From NCBI GenBank assembly GCA_015179025.1, contig WHUX01000087.1, forward strand, positions 1-64,000: a DNA stretch of 64,000 nt, written 5' to 3'. This stretch comes from Terfezia claveryi. Its lineage: Eukaryota; Ascomycota; Pezizomycetes; Pezizales; Pezizaceae. Below are positions 1-60,964 of the stretch, piece by piece. The translations under genes and the position numbers were made by a program. Every line of letters starts with the position of its first letter. Position 1 is the first letter of the stretch. The notes beneath the pieces are model-generated. The model saw only the letters and a list, made by a program, of their open reading frames with translations, was not told where the DNA came from and searched no databases.

Positions 1-199
1 ATGGACGCGAGATGATAGAGGCTCGTGCTGCTGGGCTGGCGGTGGCCTAGCATATGATGCAGTTATGGACGGAACGAGGGAGCATAATCCTGGTGTGCGC
101 CAGAGGGCCACAGCGGCCGACATGCTGCGGCTGCCACAACCTGAGCCAGAGGCCTTAGAGACAAGAAGCGTTGTATTTGGGGGGTGGGGAAAGAAAGAT

Positions 200-533
200 G
201 TGGGGGTCCATTGAAGTAGTGCAAATCGTAGATTTAGTTAGGAATAAAACTAAATATATTGAATGTTAACAGGTATATAAGAGCCATTTGACACCTCGCG
301 TTAGATTCCAAACCTCCACATTCATCATTCATCTCATTCCTCTCATTCCTCCGCATTCATCTCGTTCCGCATTCATCTCGTTCCACATTCATCTCATTCC
401 GTATTCATCTCGTTCCTCTGCATTCATCTCGTTTGCATTCTATCAGAATTAGTACCTTGCATTCTATCAGAATTGGTATCCTACATCCTATTAGAATGGT
501 GCCTTGTATCCTCTCAGAATTGTGCAAAAAGTC
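200..533. repeat. Short tandem repeats upstream of the DUF6532-like gene
   Basis: Two simple arrays lie here. From about 318 to 432 an ~15 bp unit, ATTCATCTCGTTCC with small changes (Cs for Gs, CTCATTCC variants), is repeated about eight times. From about 433 to 520 a ~22 bp unit beginning GCATTCTATCAGAATT is repeated three to four times with drift. They sit immediately upstream of the first ATG of the next gene, so they are part of its promoter or 5' leader. The rest (1-300) shows no supportable gene. Confidence 0.7.
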
Positions 534-1645
534 ATGATGGGCCGCAAGTCGACTGGCAAGCATCGTGCAATAGAAGAAGAACCCTCCACTTCAGAGAGCC
601 GCAAACGACCTGCTACGCAAGCATCCCGAGAAGCTCCCTTGATGTCAAATCAGTTAACCTTCTTGGATGAGGTATGTAGAGTGTTATACTATACAAGAAT
701 GGATATTACTAACTTCCAACAATGAAGGATGATAATGATGAGACGAATTCAGACTCTGATACTGGAGACAGCACCTGTGTAATCGCACCAGGCCTTGGGA
801 AAAATACGAGGGCCTTTTCCAGTATTCTAGGTCACTATCAACACATGACTAGTATTGCTCGAACGGTGGTGGAGAATTATACTTTGTACCGGACGCCATT
901 CCTAACCCCCGGTGAAACACTGCTATTGTTGCAAAGTGCTTGGCATAAAGCACAAGGGAATCGATATGTTGAACGGATCAAGCCAGTTGATACCTATGTA
1001 AAGTTAGCCACTTCCACCCCTTAGCATTGGATTATTAACCGTATACAGCTGAAAAGCATACATACGAGAACTCGTGCACATCTAGTTGCCGAGTGTCGAC
1101 ACACAATTATTAAGGTGCATGGCCTTAATCACCTCTGTAAGGATGACCTAAAGATCGAGGTTGAAAAGTTATTGGACAATGATCGGTTCATATGCAGGCA
1201 GGCGACGAGAGAAGTATGCGATTCCAGCAGTCAAATATCTGACTCTAACAACCTGACTGTCTTCTTAGGAGCTCAAAAATCGTTTCCGTGCAGAGGAGAT
1301 TGTGAAAGTGATCTTCCAAAAGTATTTCTATTCCAAGAGAATGAAGGGGAATCGAGACCCCGGATTTTTGGAGAGGATAAATGGGGTTTTTATCTGCTTT
1401 GTGTCAACAGCTATGAGGCACTGCCTGAAGATGTGGAAAACGGGGGAGTATAAAGACAATGGGTTGGAATTCAAGTACGAGACAACCTGGCGTAAGTGTA
1501 CATATATCGTGGGAGTGGGCAAAAGAACTGTTGGAGTCGGATAAAAGCTAACAGAAATAGTCTCATACAACAGGCTGTGGTTAACCTAGAATGGAAACAA
1601 ACCAGAAATTCAGGACCTCCTCGTTAAGAATATCAAAGCAGATCT
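534..1645 (+). pseudogene. DUF6532-like gene, 5' part, split by an inserted element
   Basis: Function is unknown; DUF6532 proteins are common multi-copy proteins of filamentous fungi. My model is exons 534-671, 728-997, 1049-1213, 1269-1491 and about 1561 onward, with introns of 51-69 nt that all have GT..AG ends and TAAC-type branch sites and keep the frame. The product starts MMGRKSTGKH, has an acidic stretch (about residues 47-60), then the part I compare to DUF6532: a basic helix around 1049-1120 (THTRTRAHLV-like), 'EKLLDNDRF', and 'KGNRDPGF...KMWKTGEY' before the usual C-terminal F..Y segment. In this frame a TAG occurs at 1587-1589, only 56 bases before the insertion, so the gene may have been damaged before or after the element arrived. 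Its 3' part is at 4644-4967. The family call rests on remembered pattern, not on a search. Confidence 0.55.
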
Positions 1646-1734
1646 ACATCAGCAAAAAAAAATGTGCGTCAGGACGTACCACCAAGCGTCCGGATGCAAG
1701 TTTGCGTCCTGTGCGTCCTGTGCGTCTGGACGCA

Positions 1735-1930
1735 CTAGAAGGTTGCCCCCTCGCCTGTGACGCAACACCAATGCTGGGCAGTTGCTCTCGCATCTGGATG
1801 CACTGGAACGTTGCCCCCTCGCCTGGGACGCAACACCAATGCTGGGCAGTTGCTCTCGCATCTGGGATGCACTGGGATGTTGCCCCCGTACCTGGGACGC
1901 AAGCATACATGCAACCTTTGTCCCGACGCA
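1735..1930. repeat. Subterminal ~66 bp tandem repeat, left arm
   Basis: About three copies of a ~66 bp unit (GTTGCCCCCTCGCCTGGGAC...GCATCTGGGATGCACTGG) rich in GGGACGC / GCGTCC words. It lies just inside the outer TIR, where a transposase would be expected to bind. The matching right-arm array at about 4270-4545 has more copies, which accounts for the unequal arm lengths. Confidence 0.75.
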
Positions 1931-2104
1931 CTTGGTGGGTAAACACAACCCGCTTACAGCTTGCATCTGCTACGTTCTTACACCAGCCAGCTATGTAGCC
2001 GGGTTTGCAACCTTTGAATATGCGTGCAGCAGAAATATTCATTGTATTTGCCAATTATTATATACACAGAGAGGTATTTAGCAATAGATATGTACACGGA
2101 ACAT

Positions 2105-2250
2105 GTGTGCAGCAATACTCGCTCTAACCCTTGGCCTAAGCTTCGCTCTAACTCTCATTGTATCCATCGCTCTAACTCTCGCTCTACTAACCAGACTACT
2201 CTCGCTCTAATGCTTGCTCTAATTCTCGCTCTAAGCTCTCTTTAATACTC
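2105..2250. repeat. Degenerate 12 bp repeat (CTCGCTCTAACT), left arm
   Basis: Repeats of CTCGCTCTAA / TCTAACTCTCGC, about 10-12 units with drift. The inverted counterpart (TTAGAGCGAG...) is at about 3930-4065 in the right arm. Confidence 0.7.
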
Positions 2251-2559
2251 GCTGTAATATGCTGGGAATAACGGGGAAGGGAAGTATATATACAGGAAAA
2301 CCATAGTTGCCAAGGCTGACTGCTAAGGCCGACAATTTAGACTTTCCGAAGACAATGAGATAGGGGATAATAAGAGAAGTGGCACGACAGTAATCAACGG
2401 CGCTCAGCCCCTCTTTCGCACGCGGGTGCCGTACTACTCAATGCCTGGCCTGGTAATAGTCATATTGGGAAATCGTAGTCGTGGTACTGCGAACGAGACA
2501 AGTACTGCGATATGTGCGGAGTTCACGCTTTGTGATATATCCCGTAGGAATTCATGCAT

Positions 2560-3600
2560 TCACGGGCATATATATATAAGTATCCGAAAGCACGAGTTTC
2601 TCACATATATATATAAGTCTCCAAAAGCACGAGTTTCTCGCATATATATATATAAGCCTGCGAATGTATGGATTTCTCACATATATATATATATATATGT
2701 CCCAAAAGCACGAGTTTCTCGCATATATATATAAGCCTGCGAATGTATGGATTTCTCGCATATATATATATAAGTCTCCAAAAGCACGAGTTTCTCGCAT
2801 ATATATATATAAGCCTGCGAATGTATGGATTTCTCACATATATATATATAAGCCTGCGAATGTATGGATTTCTCACATATATATATATATATATGTCCAA
2901 AAGCACGAGTTTCTCGCATATATATATAAGCCTGCGAATGTATGGATTTCTCGCATATATATATATAAGTCTCCAAAAGTACAAGTTTCTCGATATATAT
3001 ATATAAGCCTGCGAATGTATAGATTTCTCACATATATATATATAAGCCTGCGAATGTATGGATTTCTCACATATATATATATATATGTCCCAAAAGCACG
3101 AGTTTCTCGCATATATATATAAGCCTGCGAATGTATGGATTTCTCGCATACATATATATAAGTCTGCGAATGCATGGATTTCTCGCATATATATATATAT
3201 GTCTCCAAAAGCACGAGTTTCTCCCACATATATATATATGTCTCCAAAAGCGCGAGTTTCTCGCACATATATATATATGTCTCAAAAAGCACAGTTTCTC
3301 GTATATATATATATATAAGCCTGCGAATGTATGGATTTCTCACATATATATATATAAGTCTGTGAATGCATGGATTTCTCGCATATATATATATATGTCT
3401 CCAAAAGCAGAGTTTCTCGCACATATATATATAAGTCTCCAAAAGCACAGTGTCTCGCACATATATAAATAAGTCTCCAAAAGCACGAGTTTCTCGCATA
3501 TATATATATGTAAGCCCGCGAATGCATGGATTTCTCGCATATATATATATAAGCAGCGAGCACATGGGTTTCTCGCATATATATACTTATATGAGCCCGC
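2560..3600. repeat. AT-rich composite minisatellite at the centre of the foldback element
   Basis: About 28 units of ~37 bp. Each unit has an (AT)n core (ATATATATAT), followed by one of two alternating cassettes: A, 'AAGTCTCCAAAAGCACGAG', or B, 'AAGCCTGCGAATGTATGG', and then TTTCTCGCA or TTTCTCACA. Long reading frames on both strands are by-products of the period and should not be annotated. The AT cores are self-complementary, so the array can form small hairpins as well as the loop of the large inverted repeat. Confidence 0.9.
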
Positions 3601-4269
3601 GCATGCATGAATTCCTACGGGATATATCACAAAGCGTGAACTCCGCACATATCGCAGTACTTGTCTCGTTCGCAGTACCACGACTACGATTTCCCAATAT
3701 GACTATTACCAGGCCAGGCATTGAGTAGTACGGCACCCGCGTGCGAAAGGGAGGCTGAGCGCCGTTGATCACTGTCGTGCCACTTCTCTTATTATCCCCT
3801 ATCTCATTGTCTTCGGAAAGTCTAAATTGTCGGCCTTAGCAGTCGGCCTTGGCAACTATGGTTTCCCTGTATATATACTTCCCTTCCCCGCGCTTTTTCC
3901 CTTTGCTCATTATTCCCACATATTACAGCGAGTATTAGAGAGAGCATTAGAGCGAGCATTAGAGCGAGAGTAGTCTGGTTGGTAGAGCGAGAGTTAGAGC
4001 GATTGATACAATGAGAGTTAGAGCGAAGCCTAGGCCAAGGGTTAGAGCGAGTGTTGCTGCACACATGTTCCGTGTACATATCTATTGCTAAATACCTCTC
4101 TGTATATATAATAATTGGCGAATACAATGAAGATTTCTGCTGCATGCATATTCAAAGGTTGCAAACCCAGCTACATAGCTGGCTGGTGTAAGAACGTAGC
4201 AGATGCAAGCTGTAAGCGGGTTGTGTTTACCCACCAAGTGCGTCGGGACAAAGGTTGCATGTATGCTTG

Positions 4270-4545
4270 CGTCCCAGGCACGGGGGCAACATCCCAGTGC
4301 ATCCCAGATGCGAGAGCAACTGCCCAGCATTGGTGTTGCATCCCAGGCGAGGGGGCAATGTTCCAGTGCGTCCCAAGCGCGGTGGCAAAGTCCCAGTGCG
4401 TCCCAGATGCGAGAGCAACTGCCTAGCATTGGTGTTGCGTCCCAGGCGTGTGAGCAACGTCATAGTGCATCCTAGACGCGAGCGCAACTGCCAAGAATTG
4501 GTGTTGCGTCCCAGGCGTGTGAGCAACGTCCCAGTGCGTCAGGAC
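4270..4545. repeat. Subterminal ~66 bp tandem repeat, right arm
   Basis: Inverted counterpart of the array at 1735-1930, about four to five drifted copies carrying GCGTCCCAGGC and GATGCGAGAGCAAC words. The extra copies relative to the left arm suggest expansion after insertion or unequal exchange. Confidence 0.7.
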
Positions 4546-4643
4546 GCTAGCGCAACAAGTGTTCACGTCCTGATTTTGAGTTATCGTCCCGTGCGTTACA
4601 TGCGTCTGACGCACAGGACGAAAATATTATTTTTGCTGATGTA

Positions 4644-4967
4644 GCATGCCGGATTGCGGCCAATGTGAAGATCGTTGAGCTTGAATCAGGGGAGCCTCCT
4701 GAAGTAGAAGACCAGCTGAGTTTTGAAGTCAACTTAAGAAAGGAGCTCAAACACTCATACAAGAGATTGGAGGTCTCAGAAAACAAGCGACTCAGAGTTG
4801 GAGGGCTATTGCGAGATTCTTCAGTAGAGCTAGCAGATCCTTTGAGTCCAGCGGTTGACAATAGTATATTGGGTGAAGAAGAGGCGGAGACACAAGATCA
4901 GGAGAATGCGGCAGGTCAGGAGGATGCCGAAGCTGAGGAGAATGCTGGAAGTGAGGATGAGCTTTAG
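4644..4967 (+). pseudogene. DUF6532-like gene, 3' part, beyond the inserted element
   Basis: This open frame starts directly at the right TA of the element and ends with a stop at 4965-4967. It continues the frame of the 5' part (GAT CTA | GCA TGC), giving KADLACRIAANV across the repaired junction. The segment has a charged helix (RKELKHSYKRLE) and a strongly acidic, low-complexity C-terminus ending GSEDEL. It has no start codon of its own that I trust (the first in-frame candidate is a GTG at 4665), so it is most likely a severed tail, not an independent gene. A chimeric transcript driven from the element cannot be excluded. Confidence 0.6.
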
Positions 4968-5575
4968 CGACTAAGGGGGTCGGAATTGAGTTGCGCTCGG
5001 CAAGGTATTTTGCATATATCACAGGCGTAGCATTCTCTCCTCTTATGTTTTTGCTATTTTCTCGCTCTCCTGTTTTCGTGCTCTTCCTTGTTTCCTTGCT
5101 GTTTTATCACTCTCCTGTTTTCATGCTCTCCCTTGTTTCCTTTTGTCGTCGGTATCTCCTGCTGTGAATTTTGTGTGATATCTTTTATTTCCTATTATCG
5201 CTTTTTTTCTAGAATTATTCTGATGTAATGGTTATCGCTTTTTTTCTAGGAATATTGTTTCATGGGCTGGTTGTTAGAATTAGATAGAGATTAATTTTTG
5301 AGCCTAAGAGTATAAGGTATGGACAGGGTTGGATTTAGTGGGTGGAGTTGTCATTTGTTGATTGGAATATGTATTATGTATTTGCTCGAGAAGTTTAGTT
5401 TGGATCTAGACTAGGACAGTCGTTAGAATGAGAAACAATTTGGGAAATACTAGTTCGTGTGATGATACCTTAGCAAACAACATAGTATATAGGAATGAAA
5501 TGAAGAACAGGCTAAATGAAGAACAGATTCTGCTAGATAAAGAGATTAGAGGATGCAGTGCTACATATGGTGAGT
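4968..5575. other. Intergenic, T-rich, no gene seen
   Basis: Short imperfect repeats (CTCTCCTGTTTTCRTGCTCTYCCTTGTTTCCTT at about 5066-5142, twice; GTTATCGCTTTTTTTCTAG twice at about 5199-5250). No convincing coding sequence. Confidence 0.6.
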
Positions 5576-6420
5576 ACAACAGAGATGTTTGCTAAGGGGA
5601 GGATTAGGGAATGCAAGACATTTCACAGAAAGTTGACCAGAGAGAGCACTAGTTATGTACCGTTGGTTACTCTCAGCGTCGGATAATCGGTAGTATAGAG
5701 ACGTTTACTAATAGGAGGATTAGGGGATACAAGATGTTTCAAAGAAAGTTGACAAGAGATGGAAACAGTTATGTAACGAGAGTGACGCGTAATGTTGGAG
5801 AATAGGTAGCACATAGAGGTTAGATAAGGGACGGATTAGAGTATATAAAGCATTTTATAGAAAGTTGAGCAGAGATAGTACCGTATATATAACGTGGGTA
5901 AATAGCAACGTCTATATATAACATGGGTTAATAGCAACGTCGGACGATAGGTATCGTGTAGAGATTAGCTAAGGGTAGGATTAGAGGGTACGAAGTATTT
6001 TATGGAAAGTCGAGCAGAGCTAGTACTGTATATGTAACGTGGGGGACTAGCAATGCCGGACAATAGGTAGCGTGTAGAGGTTAGCTAAGGGAAGGATTAG
6101 AGGGTACAAAGCATTTCATGGAAAGTCGAGTAGAGATAATACCGTATATATAACGTGGGTAACTAGCAACGTCGGACAATAGGTAGCTCGTAGAGGTTAG
6201 CTAAGGGAAGGATTAGAGGGTACAAAGCATTTTATGGAAAGTTGAGCAGAGATAGTACTGTATACGTAACGTGGGTGACTAGCAACGTCGGACAATAAGT
6301 AGCATGTAGAAGTTAACTATGAGGGGGATGAGGGAATGCAACGCTCTATGAGGGGGATGAGGGGGTGCAGAGCGTTGCACGGAAACTTGACCAGGGATGC
6401 ACGTAAATGGGCAGCACGAG
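5576..6420. repeat. ~116 bp minisatellite, about seven units
   Basis: Consecutive units begin near 5582, 5704, 5820, 5964, 6079, 6195 and 6312. Each carries TTAGCTAAGGGAAGGATTAG, then a GCATTT..GGAAAGT segment, ATATAACGTGGGTAACTAG, and AACGTCGGACAATAGGTAGC. Units 4-6 are nearly identical; the outer ones have drifted, with some C/T and G/A changes. One unit (5820-5963) contains an internal ~26 bp duplication around ATATAACATGGG. No coding potential. Confidence 0.85.
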
Positions 6421-6639
6421 TAAAGGTAGGTGTAGGATAGAGAGTTAAACGGAGAAAGAGACACAGGATGAACACAGGCAAAGAAGATCTAGAAGTAGAG
6501 GTGTGAGTAAAGAAGAGTAAAAAACGGAAGCATGGTAGATACAAAGCACTATGCAACGTATTCTATAAATGTGCAGTGAAAAGAATTTAATTGCAAGAAG
6601 AAGGAATTCAACACGTCGCGTTAACGAAGAGACACAAGA

Positions 6640-6755
6640 GAAAGGCGCGTCAGGAAGCTAGAATATAGAGCACGTCGCTACATATACTGAGGTTTTGCAA
6701 AAGCACTTTATAGGCTCAGGAAGCACCTGACGCAGATTTCGTGTTTACTGATGTA
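6640..6755. mobile_element. Solo terminal motif related to the foldback element (end at 6753, TA at 6754-6755)
   Basis: The sequence CCTGACGCAGATTTCGTG followed by TTTACTGATG and TA reads, in reverse complement, TA-CATCAGTAAA...TGCGTCAGG. This matches the foldback element's end, TA-CATCAGCAAA...TGTGCGTCAGG. A GCGTCAGGA word also occurs at about 6646. I cannot find the partner end with confidence, so this is a decayed or partial copy. Confidence 0.5.
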
Positions 6756-30285: not shown

Positions 30286-33200
30286 ATGGCGTCCTCTCTC
30301 GCTCAGCAGCTGCAGCGCATTGCGGCAACTTCTGTCAATACCGTTTCCGCTGAAAGACAGAAGCAACTTCATTCTGTCTCGTTACTGTATACTCCAGGTC
30401 AGGCGTCGACGCAGGATCTCACCACTGTCTACTCGATTGCAGTTGAGGGTTTTCGGGAGTTGGTGGAGCTCGATCCGGCACTCCGCAAATACGAGAGGAG
30501 TCTTTTCTCCCCGTCTTCAATTAGCATTGACAGATTTGTACAGACCAAGGCAGAAAATCTGGAATTAGACAGGAGTATCGATGAATTCCTCGGCTTGGTC
30601 GGGCCGAGATTGCTTCTTAAGAGTTCTATCAAGGCATTGGAATGGCTCGTTAGGAAATTCAGGTGCGTTCATCCTTAGCCGTTGTGAATCTTTGATTATG
30701 GCTAACATCTGATCCTCCGGATAGAATCCATGAGCAAAACACTGTCTCCCTCCTTCTCACGTTCCTCCCCTACCATAGCCACCCTGTCTTCACCCGTATA
30801 ATATCAATCATCCCTCACAAGTCGCTTCCAATTGCACTCTCCTTTTTAATCCCACCCATCAGACCCCCCACTTGTCCTCCGCGGGCCAGCATCATCAAGT
30901 CGCTCACCGCTCATCCTGACTTCTTCAACCTCCTAACCACCCATGTTCTTGGAGTACTCTCACGCAACCACGCACATCATGCACTCGTCTCATTTTATAT
31001 CGCAGTCACAGTCGAGACGCTCAACCGCATGTGCACCCTCGCCACCTACAGGAAGAACCCGGAGGATATCATCATAAAAATCATGCCAACCCTTATACAA
31101 GGCTTGAAGGCGTGGAAGAATGCTGAGTTTCAAATAGGATGTTATATGATTATAACAGTCTTGGTAGCGAAATTGCCACTAGATGAAAAACTTATAGATA
31201 GTCTGATGGCAGGAGTGATAGATGGATGGAGCAAGGCGAGCGTTTCACCCGCTCTGGCTTGCGTCGCATTACTGGCTCAGGAAAGATCATCAAGAAAGCC
31301 CCTACCTCTTGAGGTAGTGAAGGGCCTTTCAAAGGTGGAAGGCTTAGGGCAGATGCTTGTCGAAATGGGATCCAAATACAGAGTTGATGAGCTTGCTGCT
31401 GGACTGGTTATCGGTATTCTATCTCATAAACGTGCATTCGGTGTGGAGAAGATCAGACTGGTGGAAAGAATCCTTCTGGAGGTTAATATGCCATATGTCC
31501 GGAGGAAGGACGTTTTGATCAAGTTAATTCAGGCTGCCACAAAGGCCGACTTTGAGGGTGAAGATGTCAGGATAGAGGTAGCAGAATTCTTCGTACGACT
31601 AGCAGAAGGTTCAAAAACTCAACAGGCGACCAAGATCTTGCATTCACTGTTGCAATCCGAGGGTTTAGATATCGAAACCCTTGAATTGAGTCTTCAGACT
31701 GTCATAAAACCAGTACTAACTGCGATTGAGGCACCCGTCGGAATTGCCCCTGCGGTCACGGCTAGTAAGGGCCTCAAGGAGTTGTTCCAAGAGCTCATTT
31801 CCTCTTTACCGAACGATACCACGGAGACGTCTTTCCTTGCCCCTTCTTCTTCTCCCTTGCTTCCAGTACTTTCTCAGACATTCCTTCAAGCTTCCTCACT
31901 CGCTTCAGATGTGGGGATGGACAAGCTCTTTGGACTTTCTCTATTTAGCAAGAGGCCTGCAAATGAGGCATTTACACTGACTTTCCTTGTCAAGATTTGG
32001 GCCTCTTCTACATATCCAGTTCTTTCTCGAGCAGCTGCATTGAGTCAAGCAAATAAAATTATTGCTACATCTACCGCGGCAAATGTCAAGATAGATTACC
32101 AAGCACTACTGCCATATGTCCTCATTGCACTAGCAGATCAGAGCAAAAAAGTTCGTGCGGAGGCTGCCAACCTGCTGATATCTCTCAACGCCTGTTTGAA
32201 GCTTGTCGAATCTCTCCGTAAGAAGGACAAATCCAGCCCTACGCAGATGTGGGCCTTCGAAACCCTCTTCGGTAAAGACACGAAGCAAACCGGAGATGTC
32301 AAATGGATGGAGACGGCCGAGGCCCGAAAGCTTATTGTAGGCCTGGGTATCGTGGACACCCTCGAGGAAGCAGTTGTCGACGGGGATGTTATTTACCGCA
32401 CCATGGCGCATGGGTTGGGCAGGGATGGAGAGGGATTGAAAAATAGTTTGAAGGGCGCAGCGATGGCATTTTTGGCCAGCCATGCCATAGCAACCCCCGA
32501 CCTATCAATGAAATTACAGCTCTTGAAGCTGGTGAACGCAGTTGTATCGGGAACCGCTGCTAAGGCAAAGCCAGCTGTGACAATAATCAGGGATTGGCTT
32601 AGTGTGGAGGATTACATAGTCAACCGGACTGAGAGGTGTGCACAAGATAAAGTGGATATTGTGGAGATGGAGAAAGAGATCGTATACTCAGTTGGAAAGT
32701 TCGACAAGGGAGAAGGAGTGGAGCTTCTGGTAAATATCATCAAGGGTGAATATGGTGTTCACCCGAACAAGATTGGTGGGATGAGGAAGGTTTCTTGTGC
32801 GAGACTGCGAGAGATCTGGTCTGCTCTCAAGGGTGAGGTTAAGGCCATTGCTTCCCAGAGGCTTCTTGACGTCAGCACCGAGAGTGAGGAAAACGAAGTC
32901 GATATTTCAGGCGAGGCTATGGATGTCTTGAGGAATGTCAACATTCCCATGGAGGTCTTTGAACAATGGCTTCAAGAGAGCCTCGTTGCCCTCAAAGGCT
33001 GGACTGCTAAGCTCGGGCGAGGTCCAGCGGCTGATAATGACACACCGGCAGCAAAGAGGGCCAAGGCTAGTTCCTCTGCTTATCCTGTTGGACTCAGAAT
33101 TAACCGTCTCACCATGGCACTAGAACTCCTTGAGTCTCGCATTGTCGGGGAGAAGGATGTTGGCTTATTGAAGCTTGGTTTCGGTGTTCTTGGCGAGGTC

Positions 33201-35988
33201 ATGAATGTTGCTGGTGAAATTGGCATTGGAGTCGGCTACCTTTTACAGCTGATCTTGGGCATTCTAAGCAGTATCGTAAATTACATCAAGGTACCTCATC
33301 AGCTCATACCTGTTGATGACCATAATGCTAACTTCAGATCTAGAACTCTGACAGTCCAAAACGTAAGCTGGATGGGAGCATCCGTGCCGATGTTCTAGTT
33401 AATTGTATTCGTTCAACCCAGAGCCCTCAGGTTCAGAATCGCGCCCTCCTACTGGTCGCTGCGCTCGCAGATGTGGCACCAGAAGTTGTTCTCCACAGTG
33501 TAATGCCAATCTTCACCTTCATGGGCGCCAACGTTCTCCGTCAAGATGATGAATACTCAGCCCATGTAATTGAACAAACCGTCCAGCGAGTTATCCCGCC
33601 CTTGGTCAAGTCTCTTCACCGACAAGCTCAAGCCTCCTCGGCTTTTGGCGTCGTTGCTGGAGTTGCAGAGTTGGTTTCAAGTTTCGTCACTGCTTATAGA
33701 CACATCCCGGTCCATAGGCGCTTGAGGTTATTCATCAAATTAACCGATACTTTGGGAGCAGATGAGTTCTTGTATGTTATCCTGGCTATGTTGGCAGAGA
33801 AGTACTTCGAGGTTGGACAATTCAGTGGATTGGGGGCCATTGAGAAGAACCAGGAAATTGTTACTTTTGGCAAGGGTGTAGCGAATGCTTTTGGGGAGGA
33901 AGCGCAACTACTGGCCGTGGTCAACTATCTTGATATCATCAACGAAGTGTTGCAAAATAAGCTGGGTGGTGTATCATCATACATCTTCGACAACATCAAG
34001 GAGGCTTCAACTGAGGCTCGCACCACAATGCTCTCAAGTTGCTTCGAATGCTTGCTTCGATTATAGAGAGCGAGAAATTACGTACACAAGTGGGCAGGAG
34101 ACTGGGAGAGGGTGATATGGATTCCGAGCGTATCCGCTCCTACTTCTCAAGTGCTCTTGAGAAAGTACTTGCACTCGGTCGCGAGTATCCAAATGGAAGC
34201 CTCCACGATGTTTTTGGTCTCGTGATGGAAAACCTACTGGGATTGCTGTCTACGCCTGAGTTTGTCAAGGTCATCGAGACACTCATTACAAATTCTCAAT
34301 TCCAGAGAAGTGCACTGGCTACCTTCAAGGAACGTGTGGCATCAGAATACCGAGCCGATGGTCCATCTAGACTCGCTGTCTTGGGTATTACACCCAAGAT
34401 TGCCGCGCTCCTCACATCAAATGAATGTCCAGTTGAGCTCAAGGCAGACGCATTATCCTGTATGACTGCAGTCACAACGAAATATGGCAAGCGGCAACCT
34501 GATGTCGTTTTCGACCTTGCTCAGGCTGTCATCGGTGAGGGTGCTTTGAGAAGCGCCGATCCAGGCTTGAGGGTTATGGCATTGGTGTGTCTTACCGATA
34601 TGACAGCTTGCCTTGCTGGAAGGATTCTGCCCATTGTGCCTAAGACGGTTCCATACTCCCTTGAACTTCTAGAGACTAGTGGTACTGGAAAGAATTTGGT
34701 GCATAATGCTGTATTTGCATTCCTAGAAGCTCTTGTTAATACAATTCCTTCATTTATGTCTAGCTACCTCCAGAAGATGCTTAAAGGTGCTTGGGCATCA
34801 ACTGTTGAGCCCGAGACTGACGAGGAATCAGATGACGAGGATGACATTGAAGGGAGTAATGACGAGATCACCCGAGAGCTGCGTACCGGCTTACTCGATA
34901 CGATTGCAAAGAAGATTGATGTCAAGGCTGTTATGGGTGCCATGGCGGCCACATGGACCGATGCAGTTAAGCTTGGATCTGCTGCCGTGAAGGAGCACCT
35001 AACTACCCTCAAATCCCTCTTGTCGACGGCGAATAAGAGTCAAGTCCAGAAGATGCATCCGCTGTTGGCGGGCTTCTTTCTGCAGGCATTTGATATAAGG
35101 AAGCAGGTATTTGGAAAATCACAAAAAATAGATATTGATGAGGCTGAGGTGGATGAGATTGAGGAGTTGTGCCTGGCTATAGGGTTACAGATGGTGATGA
35201 AGTTGAATGATACGATTTTCAAGCCGATGTTCCTGAAGTTCTCAGATTGGGCGGCGGATGAGTTCAAGTTAGAAGTGGATACGGGTGATAGAGATGTCTT
35301 GTTCCAGAGAAGCATTACTTTCTATAATTGGCTCACTTTATTAAGTGAGAATCTTAAGGTAATAATTCATCCCTCCTTCAACGTTGTTAGTAAACATGTT
35401 CTAATATAGTGTGCATATGTGCAGTCTCTCGTCACGGAATACTACTCCTTCATTCTCACTCCAACCATCTTCCTTCTCAGCACCGCTCTCTCACCAAAAG
35501 ACCTTCCATCCCCACACGCCATCACTGCCTCCCTCTCCGCCCTCCGCGCCCTCACAACCTCCTTCACGACCGACTCCCGCGATTTCTGGACCTCCCCAGT
35601 CCACTTCAACCAGATCTCCCCAGCCCTCCTCTCCTATCTCTCTCTCGTCCCTCTCTCTTCTCTCCTCGCCACCCCACTCACAACCGCAATCGTTGAACTC
35701 GCCTCGTCCTGCGCAAGCTCAGAAGATCAACTCAAGGCTATAAACACCGCTGTTTTGAAGGCTATGAGAAGCAAGAGTGTCGAGGTTAGGTTAGCTGCGG
35801 TGAAGGTGGAGATGAAATTGTATGAGAAGATGGGTGAAGAGTGGCTGGGCTTGTTGCCAGAGACGGTGCCGTATATTTCTGAGTTATTGGAAGATGACAA
35901 CGAGGAGGTGGAGAGGGAGACACAGAGGTTGGTTGGGAAGGTGGAGGAGTTTTTGGGAGAGGGGGAGTTGCAGGGGATGTTGCAATGA
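30286..35988 (+). CDS. utp10: U3 small nucleolar RNA-associated protein 10 (Utp10/HEATR1)
   Basis: Component of the t-UTP/UTPA subcomplex of the small-subunit processome; promotes rDNA transcription and early 18S pre-rRNA processing in the nucleolus. Start MASSLAQQLQRIAATS is the family N-terminus, with FLGLVGPRLLLKSSIKALEWLVRKF shortly after in the Utp10 pattern. Exons: 30286-30662, 30725-33290, 33344-about 34036, about 34039-35358, 35425-35988; about 1840 aa, normal for the family. HEAT-like repeats run throughout; 'PEVVLHSVMPIFTFMG' and the C-terminal BP28CT-like part (KMHPLLAGFFLQAFD) are recognisable. At 34036-34039 the frame changes: the upstream frame stops at 34064, and the downstream frame opens with LLRMLASIIESEKL. 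Either one base is missing or an unusual 68-nt intron (33971-34038, AAG acceptor) is used. The acceptor of intron 2 is TCTAG at 33343. Confidence 0.93.
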
Positions 35989-56893: not shown

Positions 56894-59800
56894 TCAGTCC
56901 TCATCCATTTCACCCTCACTGTGAGGCGATGCATCTTCGAGCACATTGATCACCTTCTGCCTCTTGGAACCTCCTACCCCACTGATACCAGGATACAGAG
57001 CTGGCCCCCCCTCATCACCTAGATCTTCCAAAAAGTCTTCTAATGTTGTTGTATCGTAGACTCTTAGCTCCTTTTCTGTTGTAGCGATAGCAAGCACCTT
57101 CTTTAGTTCCTCAAAGCCAAGGACAGGCATAAGTTTTGTGAAGGCTAGCATTGCAATGTCTATCCAGTAATGTTAGGCTCCTCTATTAAAATAATTCCTG
57201 GAATCTTACCTTTTGACCAGGGGCAGCACCTCAGGGCTCTGAACAAGGCTAATTTTGCTCTTGTTGGCTCCCTTTCCCTGATCTCAAACTCAATATAGCG
57301 CTTCCATAGAGCAACACTCGCTTTGGTGGATGGACAATCGACGGCCTCGTCAAAAAGTTTTCTGACTGCATGTACATTATTGCCGGTCATTCTCGACTCG
57401 GCCCAAATGGCAAAACCATAACCAGCAACAGTGCTTTCCTTGCCCCCAGGCCCAATGACTTGATCCTTTAGCCAGCCTCTAATCCGGCCTTCGATGCGAC
57501 TCCGACCTTCGTTCCAGGCGTATAGTGACCACAAAAGAGTATTAACCTTTCTACTCGACTGCTTGACTTCCACGATCGCCTCTTCAAGGGCTTCTCGTAG
57601 AAATGCCATTCGAAATGACCTGGAGGTTCGAGCATGATGGTACAGTAACCGAATTTTACCGTTCATTAAGCCAATCTCATATGGCCTTGAGTTTGATAAC
57701 CCTCTGTCCCGTAGTTCTTTCAATAGAGAATCATATATGGGTAGGGCTGACGATACGTCCAAGGTTATGTTCTTCGATTCAGCAGAGGGGAATAGGTACT
57801 CCATGAGGGCCATCGCTTCATTGTAGGCAAATGCGTACTTTAAAGAACCCAGTGATGCTAACCTGTCTTGCTCCTCTTGTAAGAACTGATCCACCGAAAT
57901 AAGTATTCGTCAGCTCGTTTTCAGTCTATTATTGTTTGGGAACTCACCCTCTTTGCTCGTAATCGGGCTGCATTGCTGAAAGCAGAATCATGCTCCTCTC
58001 TGTCCCCAGAAAATCTACCACTTGGAATTGATAGAAGTACGCTCAAAGCCTCACTTTTATTCCCATCCATTATCTCTTCCCATGTCCATGTTCTCCATAG
58101 GAGAATGCTGTCTCGCCGACTGCCTTCAGAAGAGGAGCCACACATACCTAGAGCTGTGCTGAAGATTTTGCGTGCAGCATCGATGTTACCCATTCGCCAC
58201 TCAATCTGGGCATAAGCACTGTAGAGGAGAAGGCTTGTACGATACTTCTTCAAAAGTTTCTTCGCCAGTTTTTGAGCCCTTTGAGAGAATTAGCGCTGGC
58301 ATAGCATAAATCAATGCTATACTCACTTAACAGGGTCTGTCCACCATTCCAGAGCCCAGTAAAAGAGGGCCAACTTCTCGCTATACCGGTAGTCCATAAC
58401 AGGTCCATCAATCAACATCTTAAGCACTCTCCGTGCTATGTGAATGTTTGCTGTCAGTGGATCACCTGAATTTGAGATTTCTCTCAGAAAATACGCCCAT
58501 TCTCCGTTCTGTCTCCCAAATAGCATATCAGTGGTTATGGGGTATCCGTTATTGAGTTTGAACCCAAACAGCTCATCCATTATATCTCCTTGCCTCTCAG
58601 GCTCCATTCCTTCCCATGTTATCAGCTTACCAGGCTTTTCGTCCCGCTGTGGCCAGAACCAGCGCCCAGACCCCAGACCGTAACCACATAAGAAGGTGTC
58701 GAGATGAGAGTCTGTCTCTTTTTCTGATTCCTGCTCCTGGGCCAGGAAACATCCGGGAAGTCCACAGAATTCAAGCATACGGGTGACTAGCAATCTACGA
58801 ACATTCTCATTGCTGAGACAGAACATCCACCGCATAATATCAGTTGACAGCACGACGTTGAAAGGATCATCCTCTTCAGCTTCATCGACGACTCTAGCAG
58901 GCCACGCACCCCGTCTTTCAGTAGCATTTGTTTCTTTCTGTATCCACCACCCAAAGGGATCGTCCCTGTCGATTTCCATGTCGTCCTCTTCTGCCCCTTC
59001 TTTACGTACCCGTTCAGGTACGGGGCCCTCATTGCCCCTCTCAACATACCGGTACCACCCCTCAGCACCTTCCTCTCCAGCCCTAAGAACTTCGGCATCC
59101 CAGAAATCCCGTAGCTGCTCCATTGTGGAATCATAAGCTGCGTGGGAACTCAGTGGGTACTGACTCAATACATTCTTTGGCGCAAAGAGGTTTAATTCAA
59201 GAAGACCTTGCAGGGAGGCAATTGATAGCTCAATGTAACCGGCTTCACGCGTGAGAATTAGACCTCTGAAGATGACGTATAAGGCGATTTCCTCAAGGCG
59301 GGGAATGTCTGTCATACCAATGGTCAGTATACGTCTTAACATGACAGATTAAGCACGCTACCTTGATCGCTTTTGTCTTTGTTGTGGATGGCTGTTCGCA
59401 GGACTTCCAGGCATTGTTCGTAACACCCAATCATTTCTGAATATCTGAAGCTGTCGAAGTCTGTTTGCCGGAAGTTCAAGTACTTTACCCACACACTGTG
59501 CATTGTAGGGTACTGTCTCAAGGTCGACCGATACTTGGACAGTAACCTCTCAGGCTCCCATGTCTCCCCGGCTACATCAAACCAATATTCCCAGAGTGTC
59601 TCCCTCCCTTTCCAGTCATCTTGGGGGATTTTTCCCAGAGCCTTATCGAGAATACTAAGTTTAATTTCAGCTGTGCTCTTTCTCTCGGCTATTGTAGCTC
59701 TTTTCTTTCTTCCATCTCCACTGTATAATACTTTGTCTTGGTGGGCGACTAATCCTAGCCATGCTGAAATATCTGATGGGGTACTGTCCACCCTCCGTTG

Positions 59801-60964
59801 AATCTCCAATTGTTTCTGCCGGATCTGGTCAGAGTTCCAAGGAGACATTTCATCCATTTCATCATCAGACTCGCTTGCATACTCAAGGTCCTCATCTTCG
59901 GGATACTGATTTCGGTCTCCTGCTAAATGGAAAAGCAGCCGTTCATGCATATTTTCCTCATTACTATCCTGAACCCCATTCTTAATTCGCCTAGATAATA
60001 GTGGAACATATTCCAATCCACGGTCAAATTCTGTGCCTGGTTTTCCTCCTTCTCCACGATCTGCCTTCGTGATTACTTTCAATCTCCGGGTCCCGTTAGC
60101 GTCTGGGAGAGCAAATCGATACTTTCTCTCCCCATGCACTCCCCGTTTGTAATGTTCCGCATGCTCCGTCCTAGAAGCCAGGACAAGCCCCTTGCCGTCT
60201 CCCTTATCTTGTATTATTCGTATGTCTGGGGACAGCCCCACAATGCTGCCTTTGCCATAGCGGTGGTATTGTGGAATGGAATACCTGTGTATTGTACCAT
60301 ATATCAGGTTGGCTGGGTCACCTTTTGTGTTGATATAAAAAGGTTTTGCACCGGAAGGGTTTTCGTCATCCCAAGGTAGAATATCCCCAGTAGTCGCTTT
60401 TGGCACGGGTTCTTTCCGGTTTCGACTTTCATCTTCATCTACCTCCCTAGCCCTATGCCTTCTCGACAACTCTCGATCTCTATGCCGTTCCTTCTCTCTT
60501 TCTCTGATTTTACTCCTCTTTCTGTTGTCCTGGTGACTAGTTCTCTCTCGACTACCCTCCCGGTAATGTTCTTTATCATGCTCTCGGCGCCGCTCCTTAC
60601 TCCGGTGATGTCTATGGCCTCTCTCCCGACTTCGATCCCTATGCCGGCTGCTCGAGCGTTGGCAGTCGCGGTGCCTAGGCCCTGCACGATCTGAGTCACT
60701 GGCAGCATTAAAGGGAACAGAAGATTCTGGCCCCTGCACTGGGGGTATAAAACTCGAGAATTTGGGCACGGAGTGTTGAACGGGTCCGCCGGATCCGCCC
60801 GTCTGGTTCTCCGAACTGGTCGGTGGTGGCCGGAAACTAGAAAATTTAGGGATGGTCCTCACAACGGTCTCCTGCGGCTATTAGAACTGTCAGTATGCTT
60901 GAAATCCTCGAGACAGAATTTCGGGGGCAGCAGCTACCTCGCTTTCCCTTCGTGACGGAGACAT
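56894..60964 (-). CDS. nrde2: NRDE2 (nuclear RNAi-defective 2) family protein, DUF1740
   Basis: Nuclear protein of the NRDE-2 family; in other eukaryotes it works with MTR4/exosome and splicing factors in RNA processing and silencing. Exons (minus): 60964-60938, 60877-59362, 59308-58327, 58278-57948, 57885-57210, 57159-56894; every junction is phase-consistent, 1265 aa. A first exon of nine codons (MSPSRRESE) is needed because no ATG is available later in a good context. N-terminal ~170 residues are Arg/Ser/Glu/His-rich (RSSSRHRDRSRERGHRHH), then the NRDE2 core with YINTKGDPANLIYGTIHRY, HAT-like helical repeats, 'LLVTRMLEFCGLPGC', 'LFYWALEWWTDPVKAQKLAK', 'SIEW..GNIDAARKIFSTALG' and 'KLALFRALRCCPWSK'. 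Tail acidic. Only 475 bp separate its start from the next, divergent gene. Confidence 0.92.

Follow-up and report, generated by a model that had tools for sequence, protein, structure and literature searches.

PlavakaB families, which belong to the CMCT clade, are described as having 5′-CATCA..TGATG-3′ termini and target-site duplications of 2 or 3 bp (PMC12730594; the sources cited by PMC number are represented here by parts of their text). The same source gives CAC..GTG ends and 3-bp duplications for CACTA/EnSpm elements sensu stricto. Autonomous Plavaka elements are defined by the PF18759 domain, and non-autonomous ones are sorted by terminal motif and duplication length (PMC8290104), a practice that we follow. 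Galileo and Tetris of Drosophila are foldback elements with very long inverted repeats, internal tandem repeats and a non-coding middle (PMC2775673, PMC4079207); Galileo belongs to the P superfamily and makes 7-bp duplications, its repeats contain extra transposase-binding sites (PMC4079207), and Tetris makes duplications of 8-10 bp and has had no autonomous partner found. Here, we describe an element of the same build in the window, i.e., the whole stretch of 64,000 nucleotides analysed, which is the beginning of contig C781 in the genome of the Pezizomycete Terfezia claveryi (72.6 Mb, 794 contigs). Very probably, this element is a non-autonomous PlavakaB foldback that lies inside the DUF6532 gene of a further element, and DUF6532 appears to be the second gene of such transposons.

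The element starts with CATCAGCAAAAA at position 1647 and finishes with TTTTTGCTGATG at 4641 (CATCAGC..GCTGATG), and TA flanks it on both sides, as an earlier account made from the letters of the window (the sequence-only reading) had stated. That account also proposed a long-armed, non-autonomous foldback with a minisatellite centre and no transposase, and all of these features were recovered. In the alignment of the arms, bases 76-941 of the element pair with bases 163-1069 counted from its 3′ end, with 819 of 909 columns identical, giving arms of ~0.9 kb; the arm cores, of 439 and 312 nt, have 96% identity. The centre is a tandem array, and no open reading frame of at least 260 amino acids lies within 1647-4641 of the window copy, which therefore combines long inverted repeats, internal tandem repeats and a non-coding middle.

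As the sequence-only reading had recommended, other copies with the same ends were sought, and the 5′ end (window included) and the 3′ end were each matched at 40 places, the best 40 candidates being scored per search; the lack of further copies, which that reading had named as a refutation, is thereby excluded. Twenty fetched stretches, together with the window, displayed 22 5′ ends and 19 elements legible from end to end; L014, L022 and L027, with no 3′ end within the fetched stretch, are outside this set. All 19 complete copies are flanked by a 2-bp target-site duplication, lengthened by chance in one case that lies in an AT repeat, and 18 of them have exact CATCA..TGATG termini, L028 departing from them by a single base at the 3′ terminus. 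The duplication length thus falls within the 2 or 3 bp of PlavakaB, and the CATC..GATG ends with a 2-bp duplication differ from those of CACTA/EnSpm sensu stricto. No transposase was recognised by eye in the open frames of the longer copies L017, L022 and L027.

The 19 copies represent 18 independent sites, since L019 and L020 hold the same insertion on two contigs. TA is duplicated at five of these sites, and the other 13 have CG, TC, TG, AG, CA, TT, GG, GT or GA; the TA flanks in the window are therefore a coincidence, and the earlier designation of TA as the target does not hold. Tc1/mariner elements are defined by a TA target-site duplication in all copies. A TA-targeted foldback of that kind would explain the flanks in the window and at the five TA sites, but the 13 sites with other dinucleotides, the match of the ends to PlavakaB and the Plavaka matches held by units with the same ends leave it a negligible probability. 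Mutator elements make target-site duplications of 8-9 bp. Most known foldbacks are of the Mutator/FB or P/Galileo/Tetris kind. Galileo and Tetris have the same general build as the present element (PMC4079207, PMC2775673); nevertheless, duplications of 7 bp in Galileo and 8-10 bp in Tetris (7-10 bp across these groups), against 2 bp in all 19 copies here, together with the Plavaka-bearing partner, make it extremely improbable that the element is one of them. The earlier remark that its combination of features could not be matched to a named family has likewise to be revised: its ends and duplication length match PlavakaB (PMC12730594), and eight transposase-bearing units carry both of its ends. 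Its kind is hence an already known one, a non-autonomous PlavakaB, and its build is that of a foldback.

These units were obtained from searches with patterns of the foldback 5′ and 3′ ends, allowing at most two mismatches (reversed controls gave none), after which ends were paired by position. Of the 109 5′ ends, the 100 that were listed entered the pairing, as did 71 of the 100 3′ ends; the remaining 29 3′ ends begin with CATCACC, a different end. Forty-five pairs resulted: 35 shorter than 6 kb, eight of 8,284-8,315 bp, and two of 8.9 and 9.7 kb. The Pfam Plavaka profile gave 127 matches in the genome (best 123 of 598 candidates scored); taking all listed Plavaka places on the contigs concerned, a PF18759 match lies in each of the eight long units and in none of the 35 short ones. 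The 30-bp ends of the foldback bound the eight ~8.3-kb units with 0-2 mismatches, and a 2-bp duplication is present at seven of them. An autonomous relative with the same ends, for which the sequence-only reading had suggested a search, thus has its candidates in this family. The termini, 2-bp duplications and PF18759 matches are those of PlavakaB; the families reconstructed in PMC12730594 are from Agaricomycotina, whereas the present ones are in a Pezizomycete. The 8.9-kb (C244) and 9.7-kb (C8) pairs have no Plavaka match among the listed places, and the C8 pair, which has its 3′ end in common with a short pair, is probably a false pairing. Two short pairs are doubtful: C234:10089, whose 3′ end occurs in another pair too, and C490, with two mismatches per end. 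Neither the EnSpm Transposase_21 domain (7 matches) nor KDZ (9 matches), both considered as sources, has a listed place inside the paired units.

The following count against this assignment: the 8.3-kb unit on C86 is without a matching duplication; C390 alone was read at full length, the reading of the other seven long units covering the ends, plus the transposase frame in C184; and the PlavakaA/B placement relies on the ends instead of a tree of transposases. Because ends and duplication length are common to both, the proteins of the 8.3-kb family would most likely move the foldback in trans by cut and paste, duplicating 2 bp whatever their sequence. Another Plavaka family of the genome could instead mobilise this PlavakaB derivative, since several families have nearly identical outermost bases; elements of a sister family on C31 and C35 match the window foldback at 74 and 76 of 85 bases at the 5′ end and at 101-103 of 129 at the 3′ end. 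At either end, the 8.3-kb family gives the better match (77-80 of 85 and 115-121 of 138-140, respectively), and another mobiliser is accordingly improbable.

The ends of this type are not confined to the families above. The pattern CATCAGCAARAN{2,18}GCRTC occurs at 574 places in the genome, versus 2 in the reversed control; the genome thus has further families with PlavakaB-type ends. Among the 100 listed places of this pattern, CATCAGCAAGAAAAAAGTGGCATC is frequent. A distinct end, CATCACCAAAAATATTATTTGCGTCC, lies ~1.2 kb beyond DUF6532 matches at C10:170051-170080, C699:8824-8853 and C9:178923-178952, and probably belongs to yet another Plavaka family built in this way.

A comparison with the long elements suggests how the arms arose. 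In all eight, the foldback 5′ end is matched at 77-81 of 84-86 columns (~92%), and in all eight the match breaks off at bp 85-86; from bp 76 onwards, the foldback carries the right arm in inverted copy. The last 420 bp of the foldback align with the 3′ end of the C390 element, with 323 of 422 columns identical. By these matches, the foldback is composed of the 5′ tip of the parent and an inverted copy of the parental 3′ subterminal region; the arms would have formed by the joining of ~86 bp from the parental 5′ end to that copy. Weighing against this origin, neither the minisatellite nor the part of the arms further in than ~420 bp found a match in the C390 element.

After their formation, the arms seem to have exchanged sequence. 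The mean arm divergence is 2.2% within an element, and between elements it is 3.5% for left-left, 2.5% for right-right and 3.1% for left-right comparisons. The arms do not separate into a left and a right clade on the tree: 10 changes are required to account for the label 'left', and left arms were united in 0% of 200 bootstrap trees. Shuffled arm labels need a mean of 13 changes, and 32 and 23 of 500 shuffles were as low as 10. These values fit a partial exchange between arms that is incomplete or weakly shown; arm sides are slightly more clustered than shuffled labels, and 8 of 35 inner branches of the tree are well supported, both of which limit the case for exchange. Unlike Tetris, the present element has a likely partner, and unlike Galileo, with its 7-bp duplications, it has a 2-bp duplication and a CACTA-related partner in the same genome. 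With a likely parent at hand and an arm-forming junction legible to ~10 bases, the origin of a foldback structure is therefore open to direct study.

The gene interrupted in the window was called DUF6532-like in the sequence-only reading, and its exon 4 matches DUF6532 (PF20149) past the cut-off (E 3.7e-9). The reading frame runs ..IKADL to the left of the insertion and ACRIAANVK.. to the right. There are nine close copies of this gene, including that of the window, 89-100% like the window over 317 bp. In all eight close paralogs the site is empty: when the two window flanks are aligned one at a time, they meet and share exactly 2 bp, corresponding to one TA. The check covered 9 of the 22 DUF6532 matches, the other 13 being more distant. 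The removal of the element together with one TA would thus restore the frame, and both the exact boundaries and the insertion into a pre-existing gene, as claimed earlier, are borne out. Five of the eight paralogs with an empty site are 97-99% identical to the window gene, and the insertion would most simply be later than the duplication of the gene. Two paralogs, L019 and L020, have a further foldback of this family at a different place in the same gene, with TT duplicated; the window gene is uninterrupted across that place.

The earlier account missed that the interrupted gene itself belongs to another PlavakaB-type transposon. The similarity of the window to L019 and L020 extends as far as 6752, and at 6753 lies the end ..TTTACTGATG. 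Allowing at most three mismatches, the 31-bp 3′ end occurs at 11 places in the genome, eight of which adjoin eight of the nine close DUF6532 copies, the window copy included and that of C27 missing. In two cases, both ends are legible: C31 125230-140358 (15.1 kb, GA duplicated) and C774 56904-70892 (14.0 kb, TA duplicated); both elements hold a Plavaka match and a copy of the interrupted gene. By these comparisons, the foldback is a PlavakaB derivative inserted into the DUF6532 gene of a second PlavakaB-type element, of 14-15 kb. The features are collected in Table 1.

Table 1. Coordinates of the foldback element, the interrupted gene and the enclosing element in the window.
Feature	Position	Strand	Basis or remarks
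Target-site duplication, left copy (TA)	1645..1646		Letters; all 19 complete copies have a 2-bp duplication
Non-autonomous foldback-type PlavakaB element, 2,995 bp	1647..4641	+	Arms, duplications, shared ends
5′ terminal segment, 86 bp, common with the 5′ end of ~8.3-kb Plavaka elements	1647..1732	+	
Left arm, inverted copy of the right side	1722..2587	+	68-bp tandem subterminal repeats, GCGTC-rich
AT-rich minisatellite centre	2568..3585		39-bp unit, 26 copies; arm alignment overlaps a few bases
Right arm	3573..4479	-	Arm alignment
3′ terminal and subterminal repeat region, 420 bp, common with the ~8.3-kb Plavaka element of C390	4222..4641	-	
Target-site duplication, right copy (TA)	4642..4643		Letters; empty sites in 8 of 8 paralogs
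DUF6532 gene carrying the insertion	534..4967	+	Start 534-536, stop 4965-4967; insertion in last exon; annotated paralogs P0015-P0018
Right-hand part of the enclosing PlavakaB-type element	1..6753	+	Transposase side would lie past the contig start
3′ terminus of the enclosing element	6723..6753	-	CATCAGTAAACACGAAATCTGCGTCAGGTGC on the minus strand

The DUF6532 profile gave 149 matches in the genome (best 150 of 235 candidates scored), and six of the eight long units (C634, C86, C67, C385, C679 and C184) contain such matches. In the C390 unit, a family profile detected five colinear DUF6532 exon segments (best E 7.5e-35). DUF6532 also occurs inside the sister-family elements C31:6580-15750 and C35:465865-474143. 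Genome-wide, 63 of 123 merged Plavaka matches have a DUF6532 match at most 12 kb away, and 57 of these 63 pairs are divergent; ~6 pairings would be expected from density, and when contig labels were shuffled 2,000 times, the pairings averaged 18.5 and never exceeded 33. Its position inside units bounded by terminal inverted repeats, together with this pairing, suggests that DUF6532 is the second gene of PlavakaB transposons, divergent from the transposase.

Alternatively, DUF6532 may be passenger cargo of Plavaka elements, or the pairing may reflect insertion near DUF6532 genes. As many as 79 of 143 merged DUF6532 matches are without a scored Plavaka within 12 kb; however, missing partners are expected, since 123 of 598 Plavaka and 150 of 235 DUF6532 candidates were scored. 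Cargo does not readily explain the constant divergent placement in units of near-constant length with common ends, and in other families too, and insertion nearby is at odds with a DUF6532 that sits between the termini. We regard this alternative as a real, if lesser, possibility. A further observation tells against DUF6532 as a second transposon gene: the C196 unit has no DUF6532 match among the matches listed. Against a DNA-binding role stands the poor structure model of the domain, which is all-helical and of low confidence (mean pLDDT 53.1, pTM 0.47).

In plant En/Spm, one transcription unit yields both TNPA and TNPD. TNPA binds subterminal repeats, and both proteins are required (PMC2613891). 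The present system resembles plant CACTA/EnSpm in having a transposase and a second protein, subterminal repeat arrays and derivatives moved in trans (PMC2613891), and differs in that DUF6532 is a separate, divergently oriented gene, whose binding is putative. Counts of the motif GCGTC across the 19 foldback copies are 7-13 for the first 300 bp, 6-11 for the last 300 bp and zero at 1,000-1,300, and the one parent counted has 6 at one end and 6 at the other. By analogy with TNPA, DUF6532 might be a partner protein that binds the GCGTC subterminal repeats, and the foldbacks might parasitise this step through extra sites; this is the less certain step of the proposed mechanism, and we put it forward as a tentative and rather doubtful suggestion. 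Under it, the inverted 3′ array behind the 5′ end would give the foldback 7-13 GCGTC sites in its first 300 bp, compared with 6 at the single parental end counted, and foldback copies, which outnumber the parents among the paired ends (33 to 35 short versus 8 long units), would compete for the DUF6532 partner protein.

If DUF6532 is indeed a second transposon gene, the DUF6532 genes of T. claveryi, and perhaps of other fungi, would count among the genes of transposons instead of those of the host, and the link would make a function for the domain testable. Related DUF6532 proteins are present in Terfezia boudieri, Tirmania nivea and Kalaharituber pfeilii. In PMC8955403, DUF6532 stands beside Plavaka in a domain list, with no link stated in the part consulted. 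The main text of PMC12730594 contains neither 'foldback' nor DUF6532. In the open-access literature searched, no paper with both 'Plavaka' and 'foldback', nothing for 'foldback element' with 'basidiomycete', and no link between DUF6532 and transposons was found.

Minor observations concern the surroundings of the insertion and individual copies. Minisatellites of 116 bp lie at 5581-6319, in the 3′ part of the enclosing element, and changes in their copy number would vary the length of the 14-15-kb elements. Conserved host genes are present at 31029-35406 (U3snoRNP10 and BP28CT domains) and 59339-60862 (NRDE-2); the contig therefore has one end rich in transposons, beyond which gene space begins. 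The contigs with the same insertion, C268 (L020) and C647 (L019), have flank identities of 94% on the left and 99% on the right, and may be alleles, haplotigs or a recent duplication. At L011:3001-8711, two foldback copies lie 91 bp apart, both in ATATATA-rich sequence that, by eye, resembles the minisatellite centre of another copy. The copy at L017:1201-6232 (reverse-strand numbering) is 5.0 kb long, with other tandem repeats in its centre and flanks that resemble a retrotransposon pol gene by eye. In the copy at L027:1201-5977 (also in reverse-strand numbering), the left arm is split by ~3.9 kb of other, mostly tandem-repeat, sequence.

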